From NCBI GenBank assembly GCA_027063755.1, contig JAMORD010000079.1:1-8234 (forward strand): a stretch of 8,234 nucleotides of DNA, given 5' to 3'. This DNA comes from a bacterium (GTDB taxonomy: Bacteria; Coprothermobacterota; Coprothermobacteria; Coprothermobacterales; JAADFF01). The notes below the pieces were generated by a model. The model saw only the letters and a program-made list of their open reading frames with translations, was not told the origin of the DNA and did no database searches. Made by a program: the position numbers and the translations under genes. Of the stretch, positions 2-4,844 are shown piece by piece. Every line of letters begins with the position of its first letter. The first letter of the stretch is position 1.

Positions 2-586
2 GGTGCCATTATGATGGTAGACGATGCCCATGGTGAAGGTGTACTAGGTGAGGCAGGAAGAGGTATTGTTGACCACTTCGGTCTGCACGGCAAGGTAGAT
101 ATTGAGGTGGGTACCCTCTCCAAGGCATTTGGTATCATTGGTGGATTTGCAGCCGGTAAGCAGATTATCATAGACTACCTCAAGCAGAAGGCAAGACCAT
201 TCCTGTTCTCCTCTGCTCCAACTCCTGCCGATGTCGGCGCTGCTATGGCAGCTGTTGATGTGCTGATGGAGAGCGGAGAGCTTGTTGAAAGACTGTGGGA
301 CAATGCCAAGTACTTCAAAGAGAAGATGAAGGCCCTTGGCTTTGACACAGGTATCAGCCAGACACCTATTACCCCTGTAATACTTGGTGAGGAGAAGCTG
401 GCACAGGAGTTTTCTAAGAGACTCTTTGAGGAGGATATCTTTGCACAGGCCATTGTCTATCCAACAGTGCCACTTGGCACAGCCCGTATTAGGGTAATGA
501 TTTCTGCAGCCCACTCTAAAGAGGACCTTGACTTTGCAGTAGAGAAGTTTGCCAAGGTTGGCCGTGAGCTGGGGGTTATTAAATAG
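2..586 (+). CDS. kbl: Glycine C-acetyltransferase / 2-amino-3-ketobutyrate CoA ligase (5'-truncated)
   Basis: This is the C-terminal part (about 194 residues, roughly half) of a PLP-dependent alpha-oxoamine synthase. The reading frame is already open at base 2 and the start lies outside the window. Visible marks are the [11 protein letters not shown] segment, whose Asp and His contact the cofactor in this family, and the PLP-lysine motif GTLSKAFG with Lys encoded at 122-124. RPFLFSSAP and the C-terminal [17 protein letters not shown] are also present. The family condenses glycine or alanine with an acyl-CoA. Kbl joins glycine and acetyl-CoA in threonine/glycine interconversion, whereas BioF makes 8-amino-7-oxononanoate. 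The [21 protein letters not shown] stretch fits the Kbl-like group of thermophiles, but BioF activity cannot be excluded from half a protein. No tdh or bio gene is visible nearby. The stop codon shares one base with the start of the next gene. Confidence 0.85.
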
Positions 587-1374
587 TGGCCGGTGAAAGC
601 CGTGAACTGTTATGGCTACTGGAGTCGGGAGGCTTTACAGGCTCTCCCGACTCTTTGATAGTGGAGGCTGTAAAACAAAAGCCCCATGTTGTAAAGTTTG
701 GAGATGATAGTCCATATACATGGAATGCCTTACCTGTCACTGGGGCACGACCTGCCCCTATATATTTTTATGTGCTTAGAAAAGACCCCATAGCCCTTGT
801 GGTACCCAGACAGGGTGAAGATATACTCTACATGCTTCCCGCCTTTACCAAGGTGTGGAATGTATATAGGCCTCAGAGACTTGATGTGGTGTGGGACGAA
901 GATACCAAGTCTTTTCTTGGCACTTTGGTGCTTAGCGAGCCTGCTGTGTCTATTAAGGTAGATGTGCTGACACCATATCATGTACATCCCAGCTCCATAC
1001 CAGTGCTGAGCATGGTGACAGCAGAGGTAGATGTTTTGCCACCTGTGAGTAAAGAGCTTGAAGAGAAGTTTAAGAAGGCAGAGAGAGAAGGCAGTGCCAA
1101 TGAAATGTTTGCCAATCTCATAAAGAGCCACAAGCCTGAGGAGTTTATAGATAAATATATAGAGTACACAGGTTGGCGCAATCAATATGTGTTTATAGGT
1201 CATGTAAAGAGGGTAAAAGAGGACATTAACCCGTTTACAGGGAGCAAATACCTGCATGCCTCTGTTGATATAGGAGCCCTCACCTTAGACATGATGATAT
1301 CTCCCCGCTGGGGGGTAAGAGAAGGCGATCGTGTTAAAGGTATAGGACTGCTGGAGATGTGGCTTGAAGGGTAA
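586..1374 (+). CDS. Uncharacterised 262-aa protein, coupled to kbl; possible C-terminal OB-like domain
   Basis: I do not recognise this family. The GTG start overlaps the kbl TAG by one base (taGTG), and a G-rich SD (gggggt, 571-576) lies 9 nt upstream, so translation is probably coupled to kbl. An in-frame GTG at 661 is an alternative start but has no SD at a useful distance. The product is soluble by inspection, with no signal peptide or membrane segment. Residues 1-150 alternate hydrophobic strands with proline-rich turns. Residues about 155-190 are charged and helical (KELEEKFKKAEREG). The last 65 residues (from about YVFIGHVKRV to GDRVKGIGLLEMW) have a strand and glycine pattern like an OB-type beta barrel, which is an inference from pattern only. 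The coding potential looks real: the frame is long, the codon use resembles kbl, and there is a tight junction. The function is unknown. Confidence 0.75.
   Translation: MAGESRELLWLLESGGFTGSPDSLIVEAVKQKPHVVKFGDDSPYTWNALPVTGARPAPIYFYVLRKDPIALVVPRQGEDILYMLPAFTKVWNVYRPQRLDVVWDEDTKSFLGTLVLSEPAVSIKVDVLTPYHVHPSSIPVLSMVTAEVDVLPPVSKELEEKFKKAEREGSANEMFANLIKSHKPEEFIDKYIEYTGWRNQYVFIGHVKRVKEDINPFTGSKYLHASVDIGALTLDMMISPRWGVREGDRVKGIGLLEMWLEG
622..653 (+). repeat. Perfect 10-bp inverted repeat (hairpin) inside the start of the 262-aa gene
   Basis: The arms gagtcgggag (622-631) and ctcccgactc (644-653) are fully complementary. The 12-nt loop can add two inner G-C pairs with a one-base bulge. The hairpin begins 36 nt after the kbl stop and is followed by only a weak T run (tttgat), so it is terminator-like but not a convincing intrinsic terminator. 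It lies within codons 13-23 of the downstream gene and could act in attenuation, mRNA processing or 3'-end protection of kbl mRNA. Confidence 0.6.
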
Positions 1375-1432: not shown

Positions 1433-1461
1433 TTGATGTTTGTATTTGTTAATGTTATAAT
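1433..1461 (+). promoter_or_regulatory. Extended -10 housekeeping (sigma-A type) promoter for the secreted/membrane protein unit
   Basis: The -35 TTGATG (1433-1438) and the perfect -10 TATAAT (1456-1461) are separated by the ideal 17 bp. A TG at 1453-1454 gives a TGnTATAAT extended -10. The predicted transcription start is near 1468, leaving a leader of about 120 nt before the TTG start at 1588. The upstream gene ends 58 bp before the -35, so this unit is probably transcribed independently. Confidence 0.7.
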
Positions 1462-1484
1462 GATATTGTGTAGGGGGTGGAGTG

Positions 1485-1541
1485 TTGCAAAAAGCCATGC
1501 AGAAAAAGAGCACAGAAAAAGAGCACCTCCATGTTGCTTGA
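1485..1541 (+). CDS. Candidate 18-codon leader peptide
   Basis: A short frame starts at TTG 1485 (or in-frame GTG 1482) and ends at TGA 1539-1541, reading MQKAMQKKSTEKEHLHVA. It has an SD-like gggggtgg at 1473-1480, with about 6 nt between gggggt and the TTG. It matters because its last six codons cover the anti-SD segment (1524-1536) that can mask the SD of the next gene. A ribosome finishing or stalling here would open that helix, as in erm- and cat-type translational attenuators. The peptide itself matches nothing I know, and it could be a chance frame. Confidence 0.35.
   Translation: MQKAMQKKSTEKEHLHVA
1501..1526 (+). repeat. Perfect 13-bp tandem duplication in the leader
   Basis: agaaaaagagcac occurs twice back to back (1501-1513 and 1514-1526). 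The second copy's final cac forms the first bases of the anti-SD element cacctccat. The unit is not a multiple of three, so the duplication shifts the frame of the candidate leader peptide and does not repeat residues. Confidence 0.85.
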
Positions 1542-1581
1542 TACCACATATTGTTGATATTTAAAAACTAATATGGAGGTG
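1524..1581 (+). promoter_or_regulatory. SD-sequestering leader hairpin (anti-SD / SD pair)
   Basis: cacctccat (1524-1532) is the exact reverse complement of atggaggtg (1573-1581), which contains the SD of the secreted-protein gene. Pairing extends inward through G-U, U-A, U-A and G-U to about 13 bp (1524-1536 with 1569-1581), leaving a 32-nt loop. An upstream gggggtg (1473-1479) can pair with the same anti-SD (1524-1530, one G-U), so two mutually exclusive folds are possible, one hiding and one exposing the SD. I recognise no known riboswitch core. Regulation is inferred from complementarity. Confidence 0.5.
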
Positions 1582-1587
1582 ACAAAA

Positions 1588-2952
1588 TTGCATAAATATA
1601 GTGCGGTGTTAAAAATCGTTAGTAGTATAGTGTTTCTTTCGTTGATTATCATAAGCAGTGCTTTTTCCATTTCATACACATATGGTGATACTACCACCTA
1701 TATTGGAGGGCATCGCTCATATTTCATGCTAAATGGTAAAAGCACAGTATTAATAAATGTGATTGACAGCACACTTGTGGTTGGCGATAAGAGATATAAG
1801 GGGAAAAAATACGATACGCCATATGGCACACTGTATGACTTGTATTTTTACAGCGATGATGGTGCTATCACAGGCAATATATCGCTTCTTGTGGGAGATT
1901 TTTCCTACTCGTATGTGTGGAATATATACTCACTAAATAAAGACAAGGGACAGTATATTTTGCAATTTTCAGATTCGTATGGCAGCGGAGTTTATAAGGC
2001 TTTGGGCTGGCTCTTTTCTGGGAAAACATATAAATTGGCAAGTGACGAGAAGTCTTCTGTAACTGTTGGCGGTCATTACCAAATAATCAGAAACATGGTA
2101 TCTGACAAACTGAGTTCTTATGAATATATAGCAGATGATGTTTATGGTCCCATTAAAGAACATTCCAAGGTTTTTCCTTATATAAACGCCAGTATCTCTT
2201 CATGCAAAGGCAGTAAAACTCTTGGAGCCTCTGGAGGTGTCAAAGTATTACCATTTGTGGGTGTCAGAAGTGATTCTTCTGAAGCTCATGTTGTCGGTAT
2301 AGCCATGTTTATCAGAGATGACACCATAAATAGCATTATGTCAAGGTATTCGCAGGCTATGGGAGTTTCCCATCTATCTCCTGAGTTGGTGGGGTTTTCA
2401 AATATTCATCTGTTCTTTGGCATTTATAAAACATCGCTTTTGAGATTTATAAATTGGGCTACCGATAGAGATAGCAGAGTGTTTTGGAATCCCACAGTCC
2501 ATTTCTCTCAGTCTTTAGATTGGATAGGTGCCTTTCTTGGTGTCATTGGTGGTTTGGATATCAAGCCTCCTGTGAATGTGTTTGTCAATGTGATTAATAC
2601 TGCTCTTTCTGTCGTTTCAAGACCCGCTACTTACAGCACGACATGGCATGTTGACTTTGACACGGGAAAGATGATGTTAAACTCAAATGAGTTTCTGCCT
2701 ATAGTGCTTTCAAATGGAGCCAATATAAATGATAATCTTTGGAGAGATCTCAGGTATGTGCCCAATACCCACTTTGTGCCGATTTATGGAGCCTACATCG
2801 CCAATGGCAATGTTGATCATGTTGTCCAGGTAGAGGGCACTGTATGGCTGAAAGTAAACTTTAAAGTATACTGGCAAGGTTCAGGACATTCTGCTTGCAC
2901 AGCGATATTGAGTGCACCAATTTATATCAATACAAGGTTTAGGGGGAGATAG
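1588..2952 (+). CDS. Secreted protein of unknown function, 454 aa
   Basis: I do not recognise this family. I place the start at TTG 1588, because ggaggtg at 1575-1581 is a strong SD 6 nt upstream. The in-frame ATG at 1573 overlaps that SD and has none of its own. The N-terminus is a Sec-type signal peptide: HKYSAVLK, a hydrophobic core at about residues 10-23, and a likely cleavage after A25-F26-S27. The mature part is rich in Tyr, Ser, Gly and Asn with alternating strands, suggesting an extracellular beta-rich fold. It has only two cysteines, C206 and C437, which could form a disulfide. No second membrane segment, lipobox, sortase motif or catalytic motif is evident. It has its own promoter and structured leader, and the next gene starts 2 nt after its stop, so the pair probably functions together. 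It looks more AT-rich than the flanking genes, which may indicate accessory origin. Confidence 0.75.
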   Translation: MHKYSAVLKIVSSIVFLSLIIISSAFSISYTYGDTTTYIGGHRSYFMLNGKSTVLINVIDSTLVVGDKRYKGKKYDTPYGTLYDLYFYSDDGAITGNISLLVGDFSYSYVWNIYSLNKDKGQYILQFSDSYGSGVYKALGWLFSGKTYKLASDEKSSVTVGGHYQIIRNMVSDKLSSYEYIADDVYGPIKEHSKVFPYINASISSCKGSKTLGASGGVKVLPFVGVRSDSSEAHVVGIAMFIRDDTINSIMSRYSQAMGVSHLSPELVGFSNIHLFFGIYKTSLLRFINWATDRDSRVFWNPTVHFSQSLDWIGAFLGVIGGLDIKPPVNVFVNVINTALSVVSRPATYSTTWHVDFDTGKMMLNSNEFLPIVLSNGANINDNLWRDLRYVPNTHFVPIYGAYIANGNVDHVVQVEGTVWLKVNFKVYWQGSGHSACTAILSAPIYINTRFRGR

Positions 2953-2954
2953 CA

Positions 2955-3365
2955 GTGTTTATTAGTCCATGGGCAGGCAAAGTGGCTACACTTGCGGTTA
3001 TGGTTGTGTTGGTTGCTACCCTCAAAAAGTGGCATAAACATATGCCCTGGTATGCTATGGCGATTTTAGCGTTCACCGTAGATACGATTTTACATCGCAT
3101 ATATCCTATGCTAGGTATATCTCAGCAGGCATATGTTGCCGTATATCCATGGCTAACATTGATTCTTTCATTTCTCTTGTGGCTTGTTGTTTTTTACCTT
3201 ATATGCACTGTAAGGTATTATGTCATACCACTGTATGTTTTTTCAGTAGCCATCAAATACTTCTTTGAAGGGGTGTGGTTTTCTCCGTATGTGCTACCTG
3301 CTTTGATATATATGCTCGTAGTATCGCTACTGTTTGCCATGCTTGTATGGGCTGTTTCATCTTAA
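2955..3365 (+). CDS. Small multi-spanning membrane protein of unknown function, 136 aa
   Basis: The GTG start follows the secreted-protein stop by 2 nt and has a good SD (agggggaga, 2941-2949). Most of the chain is hydrophobic, with membrane segments at about residues 6-23, 31-49 (containing a buried D43), 63-86, possibly 88-104, and 112-134, giving four or five helices. Aromatic residues (W, Y, F) cluster at the helix ends. Basic residues at 24-29 (KKWHKH) suggest a cytoplasmic first loop. No transporter, protease or kinase motif is visible. The tight coupling suggests it helps export, anchor, protect against or sense the secreted protein, but that is inference. The stop codon is followed one base later by a strong terminator, closing the two-gene unit. 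Confidence 0.7.
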   Translation: MFISPWAGKVATLAVMVVLVATLKKWHKHMPWYAMAILAFTVDTILHRIYPMLGISQQAYVAVYPWLTLILSFLLWLVVFYLICTVRYYVIPLYVFSVAIKYFFEGVWFSPYVLPALIYMLVVSLLFAMLVWAVSS

Positions 3366-3366
3366 T

Positions 3367-3394
3367 AAAGGCAAGCCCTATGGGGCTTGCCTTT
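3367..3394. terminator. Strong bidirectional terminator between convergent genes
   Basis: aaaggcaagccc (3367-3378) and gggcttgccttt (3383-3394) form a perfect 12-bp stem with a 4-nt loop (TATG). The outer A/T pairs provide a short U tract in both directions. It starts one base after the membrane-protein stop and its right arm contains the last bases of the pseudouridine synthase stop codon (3393-3395 on the minus strand), so it serves both genes. Confidence 0.85.
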
Positions 3395-4133
3395 AGTCCT
3401 CGTCTTGTAGTCCTACGGTTTCTTTCAAAGCCTCTACCTCTTCTTCTGTGAGTTCTCGCCACTGGCCAGGTTCAAGTTCTTCATCAAGGCTGAGTGGTCC
3501 ATATCTCAGCCTTTTCAGATAAGAAACTCTACTTCCACAGGCTCCTATAATGCGTTTCACCTCGTGGTATTTTCCCTCTGTCAGTATCATATGAAGTTTG
3601 GCACCATCTTCTTCGTTTTCTATGATGTCATAGTCTTTGACCTTCATGAGTGTGCCACTTTTTTCCAGCACGATCCCCTCTTCTTTGGCTTGCCTTAGCA
3701 TGTCTTCATTGAGCTTGCCTTCAGTTTCCACATAGTATTCCCTTTCCACCTTATATTTGGGGGATATAAGCCTATGGCCCAAGATACCGTCTGTTGTGAT
3801 AATCAGTAGTCCTTCTGTATTTTTGTCAAGTCTGCCTACAGGAAACATCTTGTGCACCAGTGGATGGTCTATAAGGTCCATAACTGTGCCATGGAAGTCA
3901 TCTTCTGTGGCTGTGATAACTCCTTGCGGTTTGTTAAGCATAATATATATATGCTCTGTAGGCCAAGGCACAATTTCACCCGATACCTCTACAATATCAC
4001 CTTTCTGCAGTTTATACGAAGAATCTCTAACAACCTTGCCGTTGACCTTTACTGCCCCTTTGCGTATGAGATTTTTCTTTACGCCTTTTCTTGTACCAAA
4101 TCCAGACCATACAAGGTATTTATCCAGTCGCAT
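3393..4133 (-). CDS. rsuA: 16S rRNA pseudouridine synthase, RsuA/RluB family
   Basis: This 246-residue enzyme isomerises a uridine in rRNA to pseudouridine. An N-terminal S4 RNA-binding domain (about residues 1-50, MRLDKYLVWSGFGTRKGVKK) precedes the catalytic domain. The catalytic domain contains MLNKPQGVITATED (65-78), the active-site motif GRLDKNTEGLL with nucleophile D103, SPKYKVEREYYV, and EGKYHEVKRIIGACG near the C-terminus. The EGKYHEVKR form and the closing GQWRELTEEE resemble RsuA (U516 of 16S rRNA) more than RluB/RluE. The exact site is not provable here. The ATG is supported by ggggaggtg on the minus strand, 4-5 nt upstream. The stop lies inside the shared terminator. The gene is transcribed divergently from the GerM-domain gene. 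Confidence 0.9.
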   Translation of the reverse strand: MRLDKYLVWSGFGTRKGVKKNLIRKGAVKVNGKVVRDSSYKLQKGDIVEVSGEIVPWPTEHIYIMLNKPQGVITATEDDFHGTVMDLIDHPLVHKMFPVGRLDKNTEGLLIITTDGILGHRLISPKYKVEREYYVETEGKLNEDMLRQAKEEGIVLEKSGTLMKVKDYDIIENEEDGAKLHMILTEGKYHEVKRIIGACGSRVSYLKRLRYGPLSLDEELEPGQWRELTEEEVEALKETVGLQDED

Positions 4134-4144
4134 GCTAACACCTC

Positions 4145-4181
4145 CCCATATATATTACCTGTTTCATATACAGAATATGGG
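4145..4181. repeat. 7-bp inverted repeat in the rsuA / GerM divergent intergenic region
   Basis: cccatat (4145-4151) and atatggg (4175-4181) flank 23 bp in an 84-bp region that must hold the start signals for both divergent genes. It could be an operator. No convincing -35/-10 pair is visible in either direction, although TAGAAT (4184-4189) and TAAAAT (4189-4194) are weak -10 candidates toward the GerM gene. Confidence 0.3.
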
Positions 4182-4217
4182 AGTAGAATAAAATGGGTAT
4201 AAAAGGAGGTGCGGAGG

Positions 4218-4844
4218 GTGAGTAAAAATAGAAAAGTACGTATGTGGATATATTTCACTCTGCTTGTTGTTGCTCTTATGATTGTTGTCATGGCTGTTCA
4301 TTTTTCCCGTGAAAGGGAAATAAATCCTGGACCCGGGGGTGGTACACAGTCTATTACCTCATCTGGTTTTATGGAATCGGATAACTCTCAGGTATATAAA
4401 ACCGCTACCATTACTTTCTATATGCTGACCTTAAAAGACGAAGGGGATTTATCGTTGGCAACTGTTACTCTAACTGCATCTCTCCCCGATACATCTACCG
4501 AAGCACTTGTCAAGGTGGCTTTACAGTATCTTGCCAATCCCCCTGTAAAGATTGATGGTATGTATCCTGTACTGCCCAGTGGTACAAAGGTGAAAAAAAT
4601 TGAGATTAAAGATGATGCTGTGTATATAGATTTTTCCAAAGATATTTTATTTCCTAAATATCCCAGTGCCACATCAGAACAGCTGGCACTATGTGCCATA
4701 GCTGGTATACCGGCCCAGTTTGGTATAGATAGCACATATATCACTATAGAGGGAAAATCCTCTGGTCCTATTGACGGTAAATATGTTGAAGATTTTTGGG
4801 GACACATAGGACTTAGCGACCAGCCATTGCATCCGTGCAGGTGA
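4218..4844 (+). CDS. Membrane-anchored GerM (sporulation/germination-type) domain protein
   Basis: This is a 208-residue protein. I choose GTG 4218 because the strong SD aaaggaggtgc (4202-4212) lies 7 nt upstream, whereas the in-frame GTG 4209 overlaps that SD. Residues 1-9 are basic, and a single membrane helix (about 9-28) then anchors the protein. There is no lipobox, unlike the GerM lipoprotein of Bacillus subtilis. After a Gly/Pro/Ser linker, residues about 58-180 match the GerM domain. The matching features are ITFYMLTL, a helix with ALVKVALQYLANPP, the hallmark PVLPSGTKVKKIEIKDD, a strand VYIDFS, a helix SEQLALCAIAGIPAQFG, and a closing strand with ITIEG. GerM domains occur in envelope proteins of spore formers and some non-spore formers, so sporulation is not implied. 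It precedes fabD by 63 bp and may be co-transcribed with it. Confidence 0.8.
   Translation: MSKNRKVRMWIYFTLLVVALMIVVMAVHFSREREINPGPGGGTQSITSSGFMESDNSQVYKTATITFYMLTLKDEGDLSLATVTLTASLPDTSTEALVKVALQYLANPPVKIDGMYPVLPSGTKVKKIEIKDDAVYIDFSKDILFPKYPSATSEQLALCAIAGIPAQFGIDSTYITIEGKSSGPIDGKYVEDFWGHIGLSDQPLHPCR

Follow-up and report, generated by a model that had tools for sequence, protein, structure and literature searches.

A short leader frame and a masked SD in front of an exported/membrane protein gene pair: probably a translation-controlled switch in a Dictyoglomota-related genus

The DNA analysed here (the window, 8,234 nucleotides) carries a short frame directly upstream of a gene for an exported protein, and raises the question of whether translation of that frame controls access of ribosomes to the gene. 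The original prediction had compared the region with erm- and cat-type leaders. Attenuators of the cat type combine a short leader frame that has its own SD, an inhibitory stem over the next SD, and an alternative pairing. Our analysis covered the window (contig C79 of G000, a draft genome of 1.5 Mb) and the sole same-genus relative of G000 among the genomes searched (G001); L numbers below denote loci in these two genomes. Translation of the gene pair behind the leader most likely depends on translation of the leader itself (probability about 0.6).

Elements of the leader region

The leader region sits between a 262-aa gene and the gene of a 454-aa exported protein, with TTG 1588 as its likely start (Table 1). 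An SD-like sequence, an 18-codon frame, an anti-SD and a second SD (SD2) were all found where the original prediction had placed them. The leader frame has GTG 1482 as an in-frame alternative start, and the anti-SD arm forms its codons 14–18. Upstream lies a predicted sigma-70-type promoter, a consensus match of which shuffled sequence yields 1.6 such sites, and from it the transcription start is expected near 1467–1469. Neither a stall motif nor an inducer is evident for the 18-codon leader.

Table 1 Features of the leader region and of neighbouring genes in the window
Feature	Position	Strand	Remarks
262-aa gene	586–1374		family unassigned; upstream of leader region
Predicted sigma-70-type promoter	1433–1461	+	TTGATG-17-TATAAT, TG before the -10; 10 of 12 consensus positions
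SD1 of leader frame	1473–1480	+	GGGGGTGG; duplex with 16S 3' end -14.3 kcal/mol
Leader frame, 18 codons	1485–1541	+	TTG 1485, TGA 1539–1541; (M)QKAMQKKSTEKEHLHVA stop
Anti-SD arm	1524–1536	+	CACCTCCATGTTG; 13 bp with 1569–1581
Second, weaker partner of 1569–1581	1543–1552	+	in the fold of 1542–1620, once the anti-SD arm is removed
Partner arm	1569–1581	+	TAATATGGAGGTG; holds SD2, GGAGGTG (1575–1581)
Exported 454-aa protein gene	1588–2952	+	likely start TTG 1588; N-terminal hydrophobic segment
136-aa membrane protein gene	2955–3365	+	partner of the 454-aa gene in all complete copies observed
Pseudouridine-synthase-like gene	3393–4133		one of two divergent genes at 4141–4209
Germane-domain protein gene	4209–4844		the other divergent gene at 4141–4209

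Folding bore out the proposed pairing of about 13 bp between the anti-SD and SD2: the two arms form 13 uninterrupted pairs, two of them G-U, and in the predicted transcript (1467–1620) the core pairs have a probability of about 0.9 or more from 37 to 65 °C. The alternative fold that had been proposed for the 5' end was also recovered. The MFE fold of 1468–1600 at 37 °C holds the helix of SD1 with the anti-SD (1473–1479 with 1524–1530), whereas the centroid fold of the same stretch holds the anti-SD:SD2 helix instead. In total folding energy the region is unremarkable (z -0.92).

Within the leader frame, an exact 13-bp tandem repeat (AGAAAAAGAGCAC, two copies) occupies 1501–1526 and extends into the anti-SD arm. 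Adding or removing one repeat unit would shift the leader frame, as 13 is not divisible by 3. An SD word, GTGTAGGGGGTG, is shared by the window and loci L040, L127 and L157; the idea that it marks a regulon was rejected, the cases being too few.

The secreted and membrane protein pair described downstream by the original prediction corresponds to the 454-aa and 136-aa proteins, and neither has a Pfam match. Relatives of the 454-aa protein outside G001 were absent among 60 genomes, none were found in phage records or viral contigs, and a genome-contig search returned the G001 ortholog alone. This ortholog lies on G001:C60, deposited as JAADFF010000038.1 (MAG: Dictyoglomota bacterium isolate L_MetaBat.91). 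An AlphaFold2 model of the 454-aa protein from a two-row alignment was uninformative (mean pLDDT 33.6). Judging from sequence comparison, the protein is a member of a lineage-specific, divergent family, with copies on C79, C13 (two copies), C102, C124, C174 and C145 of G000 and on C60, C4, C79, C65, C66 and C43 of G001. Its members are exported proteins of about 400–460 aa, followed by a small membrane protein where the sequence can be read; several copies are cut at contig ends.

Occurrence of the layout within the gene family

The direct ortholog on G001:C60 shares about 50% identity with the window gene and has the same neighbours. By the original prediction's own terms, a pairing not conserved in orthologous leaders speaks against it, and this is the case for the single ortholog: in its leader, about 45 nt from the predicted start, both frame and helix are absent. 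Four further family members whose leaders can be read are likewise plain, with neither frame nor helix. Because the leaders of the ortholog and of these four members are plain, the frame and helix are no ancestral, conserved feature of the gene family, and have come or gone between close relatives. For the uvrB-linked locus of G001, no counterpart was found in the assembly of G000, which is incomplete, and its leader therefore has no G000 leader to set beside it.

The layout does recur before a paralog. A search for CACCTCC and GGAGGTG separated by 25–55 nt (pattern CACCTCCN{25,55}GGAGGTG) gave one match in G000, the window site, and one in G001 (C4:6335–6395), and the reversed control pattern gave zero matches in both genomes. 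Both sites stand before members of the one divergent family, each an exported protein with a small membrane protein. Downstream of the G001:C4 site lie genes for an exported protein of 430 aa and a membrane protein of 167 aa, both remotely related to the window pair (22% and 28% identity, respectively); profiles built with them pick up further members in both genomes. In front of the G001:C4 gene lies a 17-codon leader frame (ATG TAT GTA AAA GAG ACA AAG GCC ACC TCC ACG GTT TGT GGG TTT TGT GTA TAG) with GAGGT as its SD, the anti-SD inside it, and a promoter-like -10 of its own. Its helix comprises 12 bp (CACCUCCACGGU/GCCGUGGAGGUG).

The two helices have the SD core and one further pair in common; between these two leaders, pairs 9 and 11 are changed on both sides and pairs 10 and 12 on one side. 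Outside the helix the leaders align no better than shuffled sequence, so that homology beyond the helix was not detected by alignment, and the leader peptides are dissimilar, with no motif in common. The doubly changed pairs are compensatory if the leaders descend from one ancestor and a product of convergence if they arose twice; masking of the SD is common to both cases either way. This recurrence of the layout before a paralog, with two helix-bearing leaders known in all, is the strongest sign that the arrangement exceeds chance.

Modelled ribosomes and the reading of the leader

The cost of opening SD2 was computed with and without a ribosome on the leader frame, assuming the temperature and a footprint that reaches 14 nt to either side of the P-site codon. 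At 37 °C and free of ribosomes, the window SD2 needs 5.9 kcal/mol to open and that of G001:C4 12.9 kcal/mol; the plain family leaders require 1.1–4.9 kcal/mol, and the G001:C60 ortholog 2.1 kcal/mol. A ribosome placed at the leader start raises the cost to 11.1 (window) and 17.3 kcal/mol (G001:C4), since it covers SD1 and removes the SD1:anti-SD fold, leaving SD2 shut more tightly. In G001:C4, a ribosome on codons 6–15 lowers the cost at 37 °C to 0.3–0.8 kcal/mol, and with the last codon in the P site SD2 is shut again (10.2 kcal/mol). In the window, values of 3.0 and 2.8 kcal/mol at codons 17–18 represent a modest gain at 37 °C over the ribosome-free state; at 65 °C the cost falls to between 1.4 and 0.8 kcal/mol at codons 15–18, versus 4.1 kcal/mol without a ribosome, and five plain family leaders require 0.2–1.9 kcal/mol at this temperature. 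The proposal that a ribosome ending or stalling at the leader stop exposes SD2 thus agrees with the drop in modelled cost at the end of the window frame, but in the paralog that position leaves SD2 shut and codons 6–15 open it, so that this part of the proposal is not shared by the two leaders.

We infer that the leader is transcribed from the predicted promoter, is translated, and controls expression of the gene pair. In the proposed mechanism, the transcript would begin shortly upstream of SD1. As long as no ribosome translates the leader frame, its anti-SD arm would pair with SD2 and little exported protein would be made, nor much of the membrane partner insofar as it is coupled. A ribosome on the leader, in the window chiefly near the end of the frame or at its stop, would cover the anti-SD arm together with the second, weaker partner (1543–1552), leaving SD2 open; alternatively, the leader ribosome may reinitiate 46 nt downstream. 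Expression of the pair would then depend on translation of the leader, and slow or stalled leader ribosomes would raise it.

The window leader is best read as a leader of the unfolding-type coupling or attenuation kind, and probably constitutes a translation-controlled switch of a known general kind. In unfolding-type coupling, as reviewed for E. coli rpmI-rplT with a spacing of +52 nt (PMC12548453), translation of the upstream frame prevents a structure from masking the downstream ribosome-binding site; the 46-nt spacing here is of the same order. Here, by contrast, a short leader takes the place of an upstream gene, and dependence on its translation is putative. The toiL uORF of E. coli topAI-yjhQ (PMC12121999) similarly stands before a non-resistance gene whose ribosome-binding site is occluded by structure, and the position of the ribosome on the uORF decides opening, as it may here; toiL for its part responds to several antibiotic classes and acts with Rho termination. 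In B. subtilis MifM-YidC2 (PMC4423224), a stem-loop over the ribosome-binding site of an envelope-linked gene is opened when the leader is translated, as proposed here; but MifM is 95 residues long and contains both a membrane segment and an established arrest sequence, whereas the leader here has 18 residues and no hydrophobic segment.

A stricter reading follows the erm/cat model: a specific small molecule or a nascent-peptide event would halt the ribosome at one defined codon of the leader, and this stall would induce the pair. Like ermB (PMC5118997, PMC8274638), the window has a short leader frame with its own SD, a stem covering the SD of the downstream gene and an alternative pairing; the order of parts is the same (a short frame with a strong SD, the anti-SD near its end, the masked SD2, the competing 5' fold), the promoter match would put the frame in the transcript, the layout occurs again before a paralog, and codons 15–18 open the window SD2 best in the model. 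However, no known stall sequence was recognised in either of two unlike leader peptides, no inducer is known, and the downstream gene belongs to an exported/membrane family without a Pfam match and is not a resistance gene. Because no resistance gene follows and stalling is only putative, the leader was not filed as an erm/cat attenuator. We consider such strict attenuation unlikely; simple translational coupling fits the data as well as erm/cat-type stalling and needs fewer assumptions.

Masked SDs in the two genomes

Gating by leader translation must also be weighed against a chance inverted repeat, in which the leader's CACCTCC does not serve regulation and the frame arose by accident. The window SD2 helix ranks 6th among 521 sampled genes. 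It is equalled by 0.35% of swapped leader/SD pairs overall and by 0.41% with intergenic, non-divergent leaders only, so that each genome can be expected to contain a few helices of this strength, and the plain leader of the ortholog also speaks for chance. A leader frame that covers the anti-SD position and has an SD of -7 kcal/mol or stronger was found in 13 of 346 intergenic leaders (3.8%), and one with an SD of -9 kcal/mol or stronger in 6 (1.7%). The conjunction of helix and frame, taken as a product that assumes independence, amounts to about 1 in 10,000 per gene: it is unlikely for a single gene, yet not impossible across a whole genome. Divergent gene pairs can create such patterns as well, but no minus-strand gene uses 1530–1524 as its SD, which excludes this source of the anti-SD for the window. 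Coincidence is further opposed by the same conjunction and whole layout appearing again before a paralog with a different helix sequence, and we judge it quite improbable. A CCTCC...GGAGG pair at window 4141–4209 represents the SDs of two divergent genes, and calls for caution in pattern searches of this kind.

A further reading, in which the leader frame is irrelevant and the helix acts as an RNA thermometer or as a binding target for a protein or a small RNA, is highly improbable: other strong SD hairpins in G001 (e.g. L132) do lack an evident leader frame, but in both members having this layout the anti-SD falls within a frame that has an SD of its own, no Rfam family reaches its gathering score in the window, and in the model (of an uncultured organism) SD2 is still mostly paired at 80 °C, so that heat alone is not expected to be the trigger.

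A larger sample drew on 1.25 Mb of G001 and 0.26 Mb of G000 and comprised 1183 genes that have an SD. Among 402 intergenic, non-divergent leaders, nine SD-masking helices of -22.7 kcal/mol or stronger were observed versus 1.7 expected from swapped leaders, and four of -25 kcal/mol or stronger versus 0.25. At -18 kcal/mol, strong intergenic helices precede 8 of 140 signal-type genes versus 10 of 1043 others (p 0.0005; p 0.007 without the two seed cases), an enrichment noticed post hoc with several thresholds tried. Signal-type genes were defined by a signal-type N-terminus and few further membrane segments, as judged by a simple hydropathy rule on genes called with a home-made program. These counts hint that strong SD-masking helices tend to precede exported-protein genes, and the excess hints at a wider rule.

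If the proposed gating by leader translation is correct, ribosome-gated control would extend to an uncultured Dictyoglomota-related lineage and a new gene family. The best-known leaders of this kind belong, in model bacteria, to resistance genes and to a small number of envelope or toxin-antitoxin genes, and a layout repeated in unrelated sequence would offer a natural case for how they arise. It is conceivable, though distinctly doubtful, that ribosome-gated masked-SD leaders arose repeatedly before exported- and surface-protein genes in this genus, with a general translation signal switching an expanded, lineage-specific surface-protein family.

Several other loci were noted in passing. The ribonucleotide-reductase-like gene of L017 (G000:C13, 4163–7981) contains a long intein-like insert after VTNPC, which is absent from its counterpart L075 (G001:C79, 2–1957). 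At L132 (G001:C18, ~1915–1955), the SD of a 244-aa exported protein lies inside a 15-bp hairpin with an 8-nt loop (TATCTTCACCTCCGTATATATACATGGAGGTGAAGATA), and similarity to the G000 locus stops short of the hairpin. At L040 (G001:C1, minus strand, ~3580–3640), the SD of an SLH-domain-like exported protein lies in a perfect 13-bp helix (ACACCCCCTACAC/GTGTAGGGGGTGT) immediately downstream of the stop codon of a MATE-like gene. In the related locus of G000, L127, the SD is present but the insert that carries the anti-SD is missing.
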